From assembly GCF_040359615.1 (NCBI RefSeq), contig NZ_CP132942.1, forward strand, positions 310,001 through 374,000: 64,000 bases of DNA, written 5' to 3'. Below, one piece after another: positions 40,316-45,364 of the stretch; the stretch's first letter is position 1; each line of letters opens with the position of its first letter. The DNA comes from Tunturibacter psychrotolerans. GTDB lineage: Bacteria > Acidobacteriota > Terriglobia > Terriglobales > Acidobacteriaceae. Made by a program: the position numbers and the translations under genes. The notes beneath the pieces are model-generated. The model was not told the origin of the DNA, searched no databases, and saw only the letters and a program-made list of their open reading frames with translations.

Positions 40316-43300
40316 TCAATAAGTTATATGCAGACCAAGCTGAAGGTAGCGCGGGAAGTTGGACTGTGCCGTTATTGCACCGAAGTTTGCGCTTCCGAAA
40401 GCGGTGTTTGGGCCTGCAAATAAAGGCGTATTGAAAGTGTTGAAGGTCTGCGCGCGGAACTGGACATTCAGCCTGTCGCGAATCAAAACGCTCTTGAAGA
40501 GGGAGATGTCCCAGTTTTCATAGCCGGGACCTCGCAACGACAGGGTGCGTGGAGCGTTGCCGAAGGAGTAAGCCGCAGAGGTTGTGAATGCTGCCTGGTT
40601 GATATATCCGTTTAGCCGATCATAGAGGGTGCCTTTGGTCCCGAGTGCGACTCCCGATACAAGATTTGGACGTTGCACACCGTTACCGGCAATAGTGTTG
40701 TTGGGATTGCTGCTCTGATGGATGGAAACGGGAAAACCACTCTGGAAGGTGGGCAAAACGTTCAACTGCCATCTGCCGATGATATCGTCACCCCAACGAG
40801 TACCAGTTGAGAAGCGCTCTCCTCTGCCGAACGGAAGATCGTAAAGAACGCCAGCGACGAATCGATACGGAACATCAGTGACGGAGTGAGCATATTCGGC
40901 TTCGAGGTCGTATACGTTCTGGGGTGCGGAGATGCCTGAACTCTGAATGCTGTTCGCCGTGGCGAAGGAAGAATCCATATTGCGTGACCAGGTGAAGGAG
41001 GTCACAAGATTTAAACCGTGACCTGCGCGTTTTTCTGCCTTGATCAGAAGCGCGTTATAGTTCGCGTGCGCAGAGCTGACGAAGAGATTCACGGAAGTGA
41101 ATTGTGAGAATGGACGTAGCGTTTGCGACCGCGCCACTGTGGCTTGACCTATGATTCCAGGTCCACCCGCGACATAGTTTGGATTTGGCACCTCATCGCT
41201 GAGAGAGCTGCCGAGGCTGAAGTTTGATGGATCGAGCTGATTGAAATTGATGGGCGTGCTACCGGTGGGAGAAGGGTTGAGATTGATTGATCGCGATCCT
41301 ATATAAGAGGCATCGAGCGCGATATGGCCGGGCAACTCCTGCTCGACTCCGACCGAAAACTGTTGAACGAGTGGAGCATGAAGGTTCTGATCGTAGCTCG
41401 TAACCGAATTGCCGATTCCTGTGAATAGCCGGGCAGAGTTTCCAATTGGCTTTTGGAGTCCTGCAGGGAATGGATTGTTGATCGAGCCCGCCGACGTCTG
41501 GTTATCGTCGAAGCTGGCCACATACGAGTTAGCCGCGGTGTAACCTGGCGCTAATGCACCGATTGGGTCATAACGTAACGGGGCGTAGAGAATGCCATAT
41601 CCGCCACGGAGAACAGTCTTCGTCCTGATTTGATACGAGGCGCCAAGACGCGGAGCAAACTTAAGAAGAGATAGATCGCCAATGTCACGGCGATTGCCGT
41701 CCACACCCGCAAACAGGATTCCGCCTGTCACCGTAGCGCCATTTGCCAGCTGAGAGGTCGCGGTGCGATCGAAGCCAACCGCAAGCTGATTGTGATCTTC
41801 TTTCAACCCTGTTTCCCCCTCGTATCGAAGCCCGAGGTTAAGCGTAAGCCGCGGTGTGACTCGCCAGTCGTCCTGCGCGAAGACAGCGAAGTAGTCCAGG
41901 TAGGTATTAAGCCGCGTGGTGAGATCGACTTCTCCGGAGACAGGGTAGCCAAGCAGGAGATCAGCCAGATCGGACCCGGAGCCGTCGCCGGAGGCATTCG
42001 GACCCGACTGAGTAAATGCGCCTGAGAATGTATAGGTACCAGGAGCGTTGCTGAAATCCTGAAAGTCCATACGGATGCGGCGGTATTCCGCTCCAAAGGT
42101 CAGATTATGACGACGCTCCGTCCTGGCAAGCGTTCCATTTATGATTTGCGACTTCCAATTGTCGAGCGAACTGGTGTTCTGACCTAGTTGCGAGAAGTTA
42201 CGCAAAAAAATAGTTGGAAAGAACTTGGACTGGATCTGTGATGAGTACGAAGCGGGGAATCCAAGTACGGCGGGGTCGAAGCCCTGACTAACTTCCGCGA
42301 TAAGGTTGGGAAAGCGATTATTACCGTAACGCGCAGTCACAACCGTCTTGGGATTCAGAATCCAGGTGCTATTGATTTGAACGGCGTCGACCTGACGATG
42401 ATATGTGTAGGAATAGCTCCCAGGCAGGGTGCCGAGTGGGTTTCCCAGAGGCTGCAAGGCTTCGTAAAAGATGTAAGAGCCGCTGATGTTCCACCATGGA
42501 CGAATCTGCTGGTCAAGCTTCACTGTTACTTCCTGTGCGTGGTCGCGCACATCATCCGTTCCTGTGAAGTTGTATTGTCCCGTTGGAGTACTCAGCTGGG
42601 GAAGTGGATAGTAAGAGGCGATATTTTTTGCCTACTGTACTAAGTTGACCGACAGGGATCTTGTTCCCGGCAAACGGTGTTCGATGGGTGCCGGCTGAAT
42701 CGGTGAAGGTTTTAGTCGGATCGTAGATTACGTTCAACGAGCCGTCAGCGTTATGGCTTTTTGAAAAGTCTCCCATACGCTCGAGCGCGGTGGGGACTGC
42801 AAAACTCTCGGTGTAAGGAGAGGTCTGGATATACCCTTCCGAACCAATCCAGAAGAAGCTCTTGTTCCTGCCATCGTAGACATGTGGGATAACGACGGGG
42901 CCTCCGAGTGAAGCTCCCCAGTTGTAGTAGGGACTGTCAGGCCGCGGAACACCCTCACGGTTGGCAAAGAAATCATTTGCAAGCCACGAACTCTGTCGCG
43001 TCTCGCCAAAGACCGAGCCATGAATACTGTTCGAACCTGAACGCAGAAGTGTGTTGAAGACTCCTCCGCCAGTGCGTCCAACTTGTGCGTCGTATGTGTT
43101 TGCCTGAATTTTAACATCTTGTATGGATTCGATCGTCGGAATGACGATGGGGCGATTGTTTGTGTCCGTGATTGGTACGCCATCGACGAGGTAAAGATTT
43201 GCAGCAACGGGTCCACCCGCAACCGATGTCGTTGACGTACCGTTCTGGTCTGCGAAGCGGATAAATTGCGGATTACCCGTATTCACGAAAACCCCCGAAA

Positions 43301-43802
43301 GCTTTGCCGTAATGTATGGATTGCGACCGAGGACGGGTAAATCTTCAAGCCGCCGCTGGTCCAGGTCCGTGCTGACGGATGCGGTCGACGAGTCTACCAG
43401 CGGAGCGTCAGCAGATACTTGGACGACGCTATTTGCTGTACCTAGGGTGAGCGAAATATCGAGTGTCAAAAAATCCTGCGTCTCCAGGACGATGTGAGTG
43501 CGTTCCGCAGGACTGAATCCTCCCACTGTAACTTGAAGACCATATATCGAGGGCTTCAGAGCACTGAAATTGTAGGTACCAGCGCTATCGGATGTTGTGT
43601 TGCGTGTCTGATGTGTACTATCGTCCGTGAGTGTGATGGAAGCGCCCGCAACAGAAGCACCTCCGGGATCTGTAATGGAGCCGCGGACTCCACCACTATA
43701 GGTCTGCGCGATTGCCGGCAGATTCAGCGCAAGCAGAAGCACCAACAGGGTAGAAAGCTGACGGACGTTTAGACGTGAGTCTTTGCTTTGAGAGGAAGCC
43801 AT
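40316..43802 (-). pseudogene. Oar-like TonB-dependent receptor, frame broken by one extra A
   Basis: The first piece (43802 to 42552) has a signal peptide, a carboxypeptidase-regulatory domain (GSITDPGGASVAGASITLTD) and a TonB plug (TYDAQVGRTGGGVFNTLLRSG). It ends in junk residues and a stop after SALTVGKK-type sequence. The second piece (42550 to 40316) continues the barrel to its end (RYLQLGLHITY). At 42624-42629 there are six A on the coding strand. With five, the frame reads VGKNIASYYPLPQ, the normal family sequence, and joins both halves through FTGTDDVRDHAQ. The rest is intact, about 1160 residues. It could be a recent mutation, a homopolymer sequencing error or a slippage-regulated gene. 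AGGAGA precedes the ATG at 43802. The Tat aminotransferase gene follows. Confidence 0.85.
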
Positions 43803-44290
43803 GAGACGGTTCTCCTGAGAATGTGCTGCCGTTATGCAGACGAGTCGACACTGAACAGAGGCAACGCCACGCCCTATTAGCAAAAGGGTCGTGCGGTCAA
43901 AAGACTTGCCTGATGAGATTTATGAGGAGAGGGCTAGCAACAACAACGGACGGAAACGCCACTCAACTCGACAGGAAGGCCCTGCGAGGAGCGACAACAA
44001 TGAAGCACATTGAGGATGCGCATAGCGACAGCATAGTCTTGAACATCGCGTTGGTCAATAGCATACGCAAGCCTGTTCGTCCAGCGGCCCAAGCCGATTT
44101 CTTAGCAGAAGAAAAGAGGCCGGACGAAACAGCCATTTTGGATAGTTCAAATGAATCACGCGAGGGAAGCAGTCCTCGTTGTTGTCACCTCATGCGGCCG
44201 CGCTAAAGCCATTCAGAGGGCGAAAGAGCCTTAGGTCAAGCCTGAATTGTGAATGGTATAAGCTTTTGCTCTGGTATCGGAACCGATCGC
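43803..44290. other. Divergent intergenic region between TonB receptor and ion channel
   Basis: No gene is supported here. A plus-strand frame of 127 codons (43823-44206) contains an ATG at 44000 with GGAG before it, but its composition and lack of homologous features make it doubtful. A TATAAG stretch near 44255 could be part of the channel promoter; no good -35 accompanies it. Confidence 0.4.
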
Positions 44291-45364
44291 ATGCGAATCT
44301 TCGTTTGGCGAAACATCGTATACGTATCGATGCTGTCGTGTCTGGCGGCGCTGACTCTGGACGCCGCGACTCAGAAGAAGCCCTCGGAGAAACAGACAGT
44401 AGAGAACGCCGAGCTGCTTCAGCCTCCGTCGTTTGGTGGTCAGTCGGTCGAGGTGGCCGTTGCGCTGTATGTCACGGATTTCGTCGCCATCGACGAGACA
44501 AAAGAGACATTTGAGGTGAGCGGATACCTCACAGCGAAATGGAAAGATCCCAGGCTTGCTTGGCCGATCGCTACAACGGATCAGAAGAAGAGAGGTTATC
44601 GATTAGGTGAGATCTGGGCCCCATCAATCGAGTCGGCGAATACGATCTCACATAAGGCAATGCAGTATTGGCTTACTGCCGACAAAGATGGTGTAGTCAC
44701 ATACGTGGAGCGCTTCGATTCGATCGTATCGAATAACTTCGACTTTCGCAGGTTTCCTTTCGACACACAGTTACTTCGGCTCGAATTTCACACCTTCTTC
44801 ACTTCGGATGAAGACGTTCGCTTCGCTTTTCAGCCTTTGCCTTCGACCGGGATAAGTCGCGACCGGGACACGGAACTCTCAGGCTGGAGTTCAGGGGAAG
44901 TGAAGTACACGGTGGACAGGGTCAGAGGGGGACTCAATTTGCCGTCGACAAACGAGGCCGTGTTTCAGATTGCGATGAAGCGGCGATCAGGCTTCTACAT
45001 CTGGAAGATTCTCGTGCCTCTCGTGATGCTCGCGCTCATTCCAGGCGTGGTGTTCTGGATCGACGCAGAGATGTTTGACTGGCTGCTGAAGATCCCGATG
45101 ACGATGATGCTGTCGATGGTGGCATTCGAATTCACGATTGCGCGCGATCTGCCGCGCATCGGCTACGTCTCGTTTCTGGATGCGGTCTTCCTGGCCAGCT
45201 TTACACTTTGCTTTCTCTGCATCTTTGAGATATTGGGCGTATTTCTTCTGCAGAAGCATGGGAAGCGAGAGCGGGCAGTGAAGCTGCATAGAATGGGACG
45301 ATGGGCATATCCTCTGACCTATCTCCTTGTGATCGCCCTCCTCGCACTCGGATTTTTGGCCTGA
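44291..45364 (+). CDS. Prokaryotic pentameric ligand-gated ion channel (Cys-loop superfamily, GLIC/ELIC-like)
   Basis: The ~357-residue protein has a signal peptide (IVYVSMLSCLAALTLDAA), then a beta-sandwich ligand domain at residues ~50-232. It contains VALYVTDFVAIDETKETFEV, YLTAKWKDPRL, and the family loop FRRFPFDTQLLRLEF, where the two Cys-loop cysteines are replaced by Asn and Leu as in other bacterial members. Four membrane helices follow. M1 is FYIWKILVPLVMLALIPGVV, M2 is KIPMTMMLSMVAFEFTIA, then the M2-M3 loop DLPRIGYVSFLDAVF, M3 and a C-terminal M4. These are homopentameric channels of the inner membrane gated by protons, amines or other small ligands. The start at 44291 gives the leader cleanly. 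It is divergent from the Oar receptor operon and convergent with the MBL gene, two bases apart. Confidence 0.93.
   Translation: MRIFVWRNIVYVSMLSCLAALTLDAATQKKPSEKQTVENAELLQPPSFGGQSVEVAVALYVTDFVAIDETKETFEVSGYLTAKWKDPRLAWPIATTDQKKRGYRLGEIWAPSIESANTISHKAMQYWLTADKDGVVTYVERFDSIVSNNFDFRRFPFDTQLLRLEFHTFFTSDEDVRFAFQPLPSTGISRDRDTELSGWSSGEVKYTVDRVRGGLNLPSTNEAVFQIAMKRRSGFYIWKILVPLVMLALIPGVVFWIDAEMFDWLLKIPMTMMLSMVAFEFTIARDLPRIGYVSFLDAVFLASFTLCFLCIFEILGVFLLQKHGKRERAVKLHRMGRWAYPLTYLLVIALLALGFLA

Follow-up and report, generated by a model that had tools for sequence, protein, structure and literature searches.

The channel gene and its product

The window analysed here is a stretch of 64,000 nucleotides from Tunturibacter psychrotolerans (contig NZ_CP132942.1, positions 310,001 to 374,000). 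At 44291-45364 its plus strand carries a 357-codon open reading frame (ORF) with an ATG start and no internal stops; an in-frame GTG at 44249, as a possible alternative start, would add 14 residues. An earlier note, made from the letters alone, had read this ORF as an intact bacterial pentameric ligand-gated ion channel (pLGIC), and the reading frame, the Pfam ligand-binding domain, the phmmer match to GLIC, the AlphaFold2 model and the ratio of nonsynonymous to synonymous substitution rates (dN/dS) all bear this out. The product, P0001, is an intact subunit of such a channel, encoded by a gene under purifying selection. By sequence comparison it belongs to a monophyletic clade, so far known from Acidobacteriaceae, with rearranged pore charges. 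These charges are predicted to be opposite to those of its bacterial relatives, which makes P0001 a candidate bacterial anion channel.

The neurotransmitter-gated ligand-binding domain PF02931 matched aa 42-232 (4.4e-19), and the transmembrane domain PF02932 scored 24.8 bits (3.2e-5), below its curated cut-off of 28.1. A phmmer search against solved structures returned a GLIC chain over residues 44-355 (2.8e-34), whereas a family profile searched against the PDB ranked ELIC first (1.8e-42). Homologues of P0001 at E 1e-3 or better number 314, and the genome of 5.64 Mb has one match to the gene. The features of the gene, all on the plus strand, are as follows (model 2 is the structure model described below).

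44291..45364, +, pLGIC gene P0001, 357 aa (ORF and translation, PF02931, GLIC match)
44291..44368, +, N-terminal hydrophobic leader, probable signal peptide, aa 1-26, whose boundary we infer (sequence; model 2 has helix 8-20 at low confidence)
44420..44986, +, periplasmic ligand-binding beta-sandwich, about aa 44-232 (PF02931 match; model 2 places strands at 53-231)
44753..44764, +, Pro-loop tip FPFD, aa 155-158, lacking the two Cys (sequence)
44990..45058, +, M1 helix, aa 234-256, including the conserved P243 (model 2)
45074..45142, +, M2 pore helix, aa 262-284, FDWLLKIPMTMMLSMVAFEFTIA (model 2; ungapped alignment)
45173..45256, +, M3 helix, aa 295-322 (model 2)
45266..45358, +, M4 helix, aa 326-356 (model 2)

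Members of the Pro-loop superfamily carry [F/Y]PxD at the beta6-beta7 tip with an absolutely conserved Pro (PMC4795631, Table 1). P0001 has F155-P156-F157-D158 there, together with the beta9 Trp (W199), the pre-M1 Arg (R231), the M1 Pro (P243) and the M2-M3 Pro (P288), so that all seven of the most conserved superfamily positions given by Jaiteh et al. 2016 (PMC4795631) are present: F155, P156, D158, W199, R231, P243 and P288. In an alignment of 117 rows, P156, R231, P243 and P288 are invariant, and D158 and W199 are kept in at least 90%. The only cysteines are at 17, 307 and 310. Neither Cys of the Cys-loop is therefore present, and the Cys pair around the Pro-loop that marks the Cys-loop receptors of the animal branch is absent.

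Model 2, an AlphaFold2 monomer model built from 117 rows (43 from the clade and 74 from outside it) with a predicted local distance difference test score (pLDDT) of 88, superposes on GLIC at 1.8 Å across 304 residues. Its fold is GLIC/GABA-A-like, with the ligand-binding sandwich and four transmembrane helices of the superfamily, and M2 is one continuous helix (262-284, block pLDDT 89-95). It superseded the weaker model 1 (pLDDT 73), whose input was a shallow set of 77 clade rows. The parts that the earlier note had listed, namely the ligand sandwich, the cysteine-free FPFD loop, M1-M4 and the M2-M3 loop with its conserved P288, were thus all recovered.

Selection was assessed against the orthologue of Edaphobacter lichenicola X5P2 (L003), which is 91% identical. 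The overall dN/dS is 0.18 and that of the extracellular domain 0.09; aa 260-290 hold five synonymous and no nonsynonymous changes. Among the stretches tested, the sole one with a value above 1 is the leader region, aa 1-40 (44291-44410), at 1.4, from few changes (3 synonymous, 13 nonsynonymous). The match region is free of stops in all six carriers of the genus.

Pore register and clade pattern

Alignment of M2 to GLIC and ELIC needs no gaps, nor does that of M2-M3 to GLIC. The M1-M2 linker is two residues longer than in GLIC and equals in length that of five of the six other Acidobacteriota pLGICs (L013, L015, L016, L017, L019); M1 to M3 is gap-free against these five and also against the P0164 type. 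The gap-free M1-M3 alignments fix D263 at -2', K267 at 2' and P269 at 4', and with them the remaining register of T271 at 6', L274 at 9', F281 at 16' and R285 at 20'. If the helix is taken as ideal, with 9' facing the pore, positions -2', 2', 16' and 20' fall within 20 degrees of 9'. Asp-2' and Lys2', four residues apart, share a face at -20 and +20 degrees, and 4' sits at -140 degrees, so Pro4' does not line the pore. The pore line first proposed (Asp-2', Lys2', Thr6', Leu9', Phe16') accordingly keeps its letters. Gaps that would move Lys and Pro out of the pore were looked for and none was needed; Pro4', which the note had placed in the pore as unusual, is present and odd but lies off the pore face anyway.

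The clade tally comprises P0001 and 120 listed homologues of the 314, all at least 52% identical to it; as P0011 is a fragment gapped in M2, most counts run over 120 rows. The 162 outside rows are all 42 matches of one search and the best 120 of 1177 of another. Both searches started from outside sequences and scored only the 8000 candidates sharing most words; the rows stand for a few clades rather than the whole superfamily, the nearest being about 33% identical to P0001. Four residues of the pore helix stand out in this comparison.

45077..45079, +, Asp263, -2' ring (clade D 121/121; outside D 1/162, G 130/162)
45089..45091, +, Lys267, 2' ring (clade K 120/120; outside K/R 0/162)
45095..45097, +, Pro269, 4', off the pore face (clade P 120/120; outside 0/162)
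45143..45145, +, Arg285, 20', outer ring (clade R 118/121, H 2, gap 1)

Within the clade, Phe-Asp-Trp-x-x-Lys-x-Pro is invariant wherever covered, with Phe-3' and Asp-2' in 121/121 rows and Trp-1', Lys2', Pro4', Thr6' and Leu9' in all 120 covering rows. This constancy, together with the lack of nonsynonymous change in aa 260-290 relative to L003, indicates that Lys2' and Pro4' are not there by chance. Lys2' is as unusual as had been supposed, since the outside rows have Ser (118), Gly (20), Asn (14), Ala (5), Gln (2), Asp (2) or Thr (1) at this position. At 0' the outside rows carry Arg (122), Gln (31) or Lys (9) without exception and the clade carries Ile (48), Leu (41), Val (21), Thr (8), Gln (1), Met (1) or a gap (1); Arg or Lys occupies 0' in 79% of the dataset of Jaiteh et al. 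(PMC4795631). Outside the clade -1' is Asp in 135 rows and 20' is Asp (64), Glu (48), Thr (27), Ser (11), Ala (6) or another residue (6), with neither Arg nor Lys among the 162.

L007, a distant relative that falls outside both tallies, carries His at 2' and Cys at 4', so that ionisable residues at 2' are not absolutely unique. The pLGIC-like part of L007 (1-2148) is C-terminal; its ORF runs off the edge of the locus and spans at least 715 residues, and the long extra N-terminal part resembles, by eye only, a periplasmic-binding protein.

In a tree of 46 rows, the 17 that belong to the clade group together (100/100) on a branch 1.57 long. Under a midpoint root, the clade joins the ELIC group at 95/87, beside it and not inside it. 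Six rows drew a long-branch flag: L018, GLIC, L015, ELIC, P0140 and L019. Among these, L018 is a very divergent PF02931 protein with a branch length above 4, an insertion before M2 and, in the alignment, an M2-M3 loop without Pro.

P0001 is 25% identical to GLIC; its Lys2', Pro4', Leu9' and Arg20' stand where GLIC has Thr, Val, Ile and Thr. Compared with ELIC, the clade has Lys2', Pro4' and Arg20' and lacks Arg0'. The six other Acidobacteriota pLGICs (L008, L013, L015, L016, L017, L019) are of the same phylum and, by sequence, of the same family, at 26-32% identity, but differ at 2' (Ser or Gly), 4' (Ala, Gly, Ser or Cys) and 0' (Arg, Lys or Gln). Unlike the anion-selective GABA-A and glycine receptors of animals, P0001 has no Cys-loop cysteines, no basic residue at 0' and no long M3-M4 domain. 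It has W-1' L0' where the metazoan anionic A-[R/K] motif ends at 0' (PMC4795631). A literature search over titles and abstract starts, with most subscription journals outside its coverage, found among the papers listed neither the Lys2' clade, nor an anion-selective prokaryotic pLGIC, nor a paper pairing Acidobacteria with pentameric ligand-gated channels.

Distribution, neighbours and ligand pocket

The clade is patchily distributed. It occurs in 6 of 62 genomes of the genus and in 5 of 399 genomes of the class, all five within the genus. In the family, four of 200 genomes match the protein query, one of them (L007) not of the clade, and across the phylum PF02931 was found in 12 of 396 genomes, five of which carry the clade. 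Both named-organism proteins among the listed homologues (P0063, P0072) come from Acidobacteriaceae, and so do L001-L003. Matches on plasmids are few (8 of 72,556 records, all at 23-26% identity, one covering at least 80% of the query), and 18 pattern matches on viral contigs included no relatives.

The gene's neighbours in the window are a split Oar-like outer-membrane gene and a gene of the metallo-beta-lactamase (MBL) fold. The Oar/TonB-type gene (40316-43883, minus strand) is broken into the ORFs 42552-43883 and 40316-42550, which lie in different frames and each match PF25183; its counterpart in L003 lies in shorter ORFs. At L001 (2511-7050), L020, L021 and L022, an ORF for a Ser/Thr kinase with tetratricopeptide repeats (TPR) stands just upstream of the pLGIC gene on the same strand, as judged by Pfam on L001 and by BLAST on the other three. 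No homologue of it was found in the compared stretches of the window and L003, and the neighbours at L002 and L023 differ again. A conserved genomic partner was sought, with ten neighbour proteins scanned with Pfam, and none held across the loci compared. Repeats are limited to short imperfect pairs; promoter-like sites number 1 against 1.0 expected and terminator-like sites 4 against 1.8.

Mapping the ligand pocket on ELIC gave Phe169 (121/121) for F133, Tyr79 (Tyr 84, Phe 31) for Y38, Tyr60 (116) for F19, Glu114 (111) for E77 and Tyr138 (120/121) for Y102. The position of ELIC I79 is Ala in 115 clade rows, and that of E131 is Gln (66), His (50) or Glu (3), with H167 in P0001. The loop C aromatics of ELIC at 175 and 188, which we take to be ligand contacts, are missing, P0001 having G213 and T220; loop C columns 178-182 are gaps in the clade, and 178-181 are gapped in most outside rows too. 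Y38, I79, E131 and F133 are ligand contacts of ELIC (PMC9674596), and F19 and V40 matter there by mutation (PMC3119659). With F169, Y79 and Y60 kept and E131 and the loop C aromatics lost, an aromatic half-pocket is retained but the ELIC amine cage is not. P0001 thus lacks the set that defines an ELIC-type amine receptor, that is, an aromatic pocket with the loop C aromatics and the Glu131/Phe133 contacts.

Ion selectivity of the pore

Pore charge was summed by helical-wheel arithmetic over M2, which is not a pore calculation and depends on the angular cut. Within 60 degrees of 9', the clade carries +1 per subunit in 118 of 121 rows and the outside rows 0 or a negative charge in 162/162, with GLIC at -1 and ELIC at 0. 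The likeliest single reading would be an anion-permeable pore.

Family membership leads us to propose the standard gating of pLGICs. The channel would be a pentamer of the inner membrane whose beta-sandwich lies in the periplasm, and a small periplasmic solute would bind between subunits. The resulting pull on the Pro-loop, the pre-M1 Arg and the M2-M3 loop would open the hydrophobic gate of Leu9' and Phe16'. Less surely, the Lys2' ring and the Arg20' outer mouth, with Asp-2' one turn below, may make the open pore favour anions, a solution that would differ from the A-[R/K] filter of the animal anionic receptors. Our best explanation as a whole, at a probability of roughly 0.48, is a homopentamer that a periplasmic ligand opens, with Lys2' and Asp-2' as its filter and an open pore that favours anions. 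The wider proposal, of a naturally anion-selective prokaryotic clade whose anion selectivity arose independently of the animal glycine and GABA receptors through a shift of the basic ring from 0' to 2' (along with Asp-2', Pro4' and Arg20'), is more tentative still.

A precedent is offered by arginines in M2 of the acetylcholine receptor (AChR), at what is presumably position 9'. They give chloride conductance at positive potentials (PMC6800317). The ELIC mutant E229A is likewise permeable to small anions (PMC3119659).

Several points weigh against an anion-favouring pore. In the AChR case sodium still carries the current at negative potentials (PMC6800317), and the arginines number two, against the five lysines here, and occupy a different position in M2. 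The charge contrast shifts with the cut: at 80 degrees the clade is +1 in 117 of 121 rows and one of the 162 outside rows is also +1. When every position between -2' and 20' is counted, 3 clade rows come to -1, 73 to 0 (P0001 among them) and 45 to +1, and the outside rows are -2 in 6, -1 in 117, 0 in 33, +1 in 5 and +2 in 1, a weaker contrast than by helix face. Asp-2' is an acidic ring where GLIC has Glu-2', and the Asp(i)-Lys(i+4) pair could neutralise Lys2'. Sequence is generally insufficient to decide selectivity, according to Jaiteh et al. (PMC4795631). The neighbours, not being conserved, give no operon or partner hint to the ligand. Finally, model 1 breaks the M2 helix at 266; a pore lined by M2 accords with the continuous helix of the better monomer model and less so with the weaker one.

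The main rival, a serious one to which we nevertheless give clearly less weight, is a cation-permeable or weakly selective channel. Asp-2' would be the filter as in GLIC, and Lys2', held in an intrahelical or intersubunit salt bridge, would act as a cytoplasmic latch or desensitisation gate. The joint invariance of Asp-2' and Lys2' on one face and the Glu-2' of GLIC fit this, and the solved relatives GLIC and ELIC are described as cation-selective (PMC3119659). The charge changes elsewhere in M2 argue the other way: the clade has Arg20' where Asp or Glu is commonest outside (112/162), and Trp where the outside -1' is mostly Asp, a change in the same charge direction.

It is improbable that P0001 is a pLGIC-shaped receptor that hardly conducts, its lysine ring plugging the pore and its ligand being read out otherwise. 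The Lys2' ring has no counterpart among the outside sequences, and the kinase-TPR ORF upstream at four loci is a conceivable, unproven read-out; yet Leu9' and Phe16' of the hydrophobic gate are retained, as are the coupling residues, and no homologue of the kinase ORF was found in the parts of the window and of L003 that were compared. More doubtful again is an M2 rotated or kinked by Pro4', in which Lys267 would point toward the M1/M3 bundle or the cytoplasm and stand in for the lost 0' basic residue. The clade did lose the Arg, Lys or Gln of 0' and gain Lys at 2', and the break in model 1 agrees, but M2 is continuous in the better model and M1-M3 aligns without gap or shift to outside sequences of the same length. 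That the gene is degenerate or spurious is close to negligible, its patchy occurrence being outweighed by the dN/dS of 0.18, the 314 homologues and the intact frames of six carriers; the dN/dS and the frames also lead us to reject a frame artefact or pseudogene.

P0001 is a real and intact member of a known superfamily, with a distinctive clade pore not found described in the literature searched. The origin of charge selectivity in the pLGIC superfamily is an open question, and a clade whose pore charge is fixed and, by helix face, inverted makes it directly testable, in a small protein with no Cys-loop and no long intracellular domain. A cation-selective outcome would be informative as well, as evidence that five lysines can ring a working cation pore.
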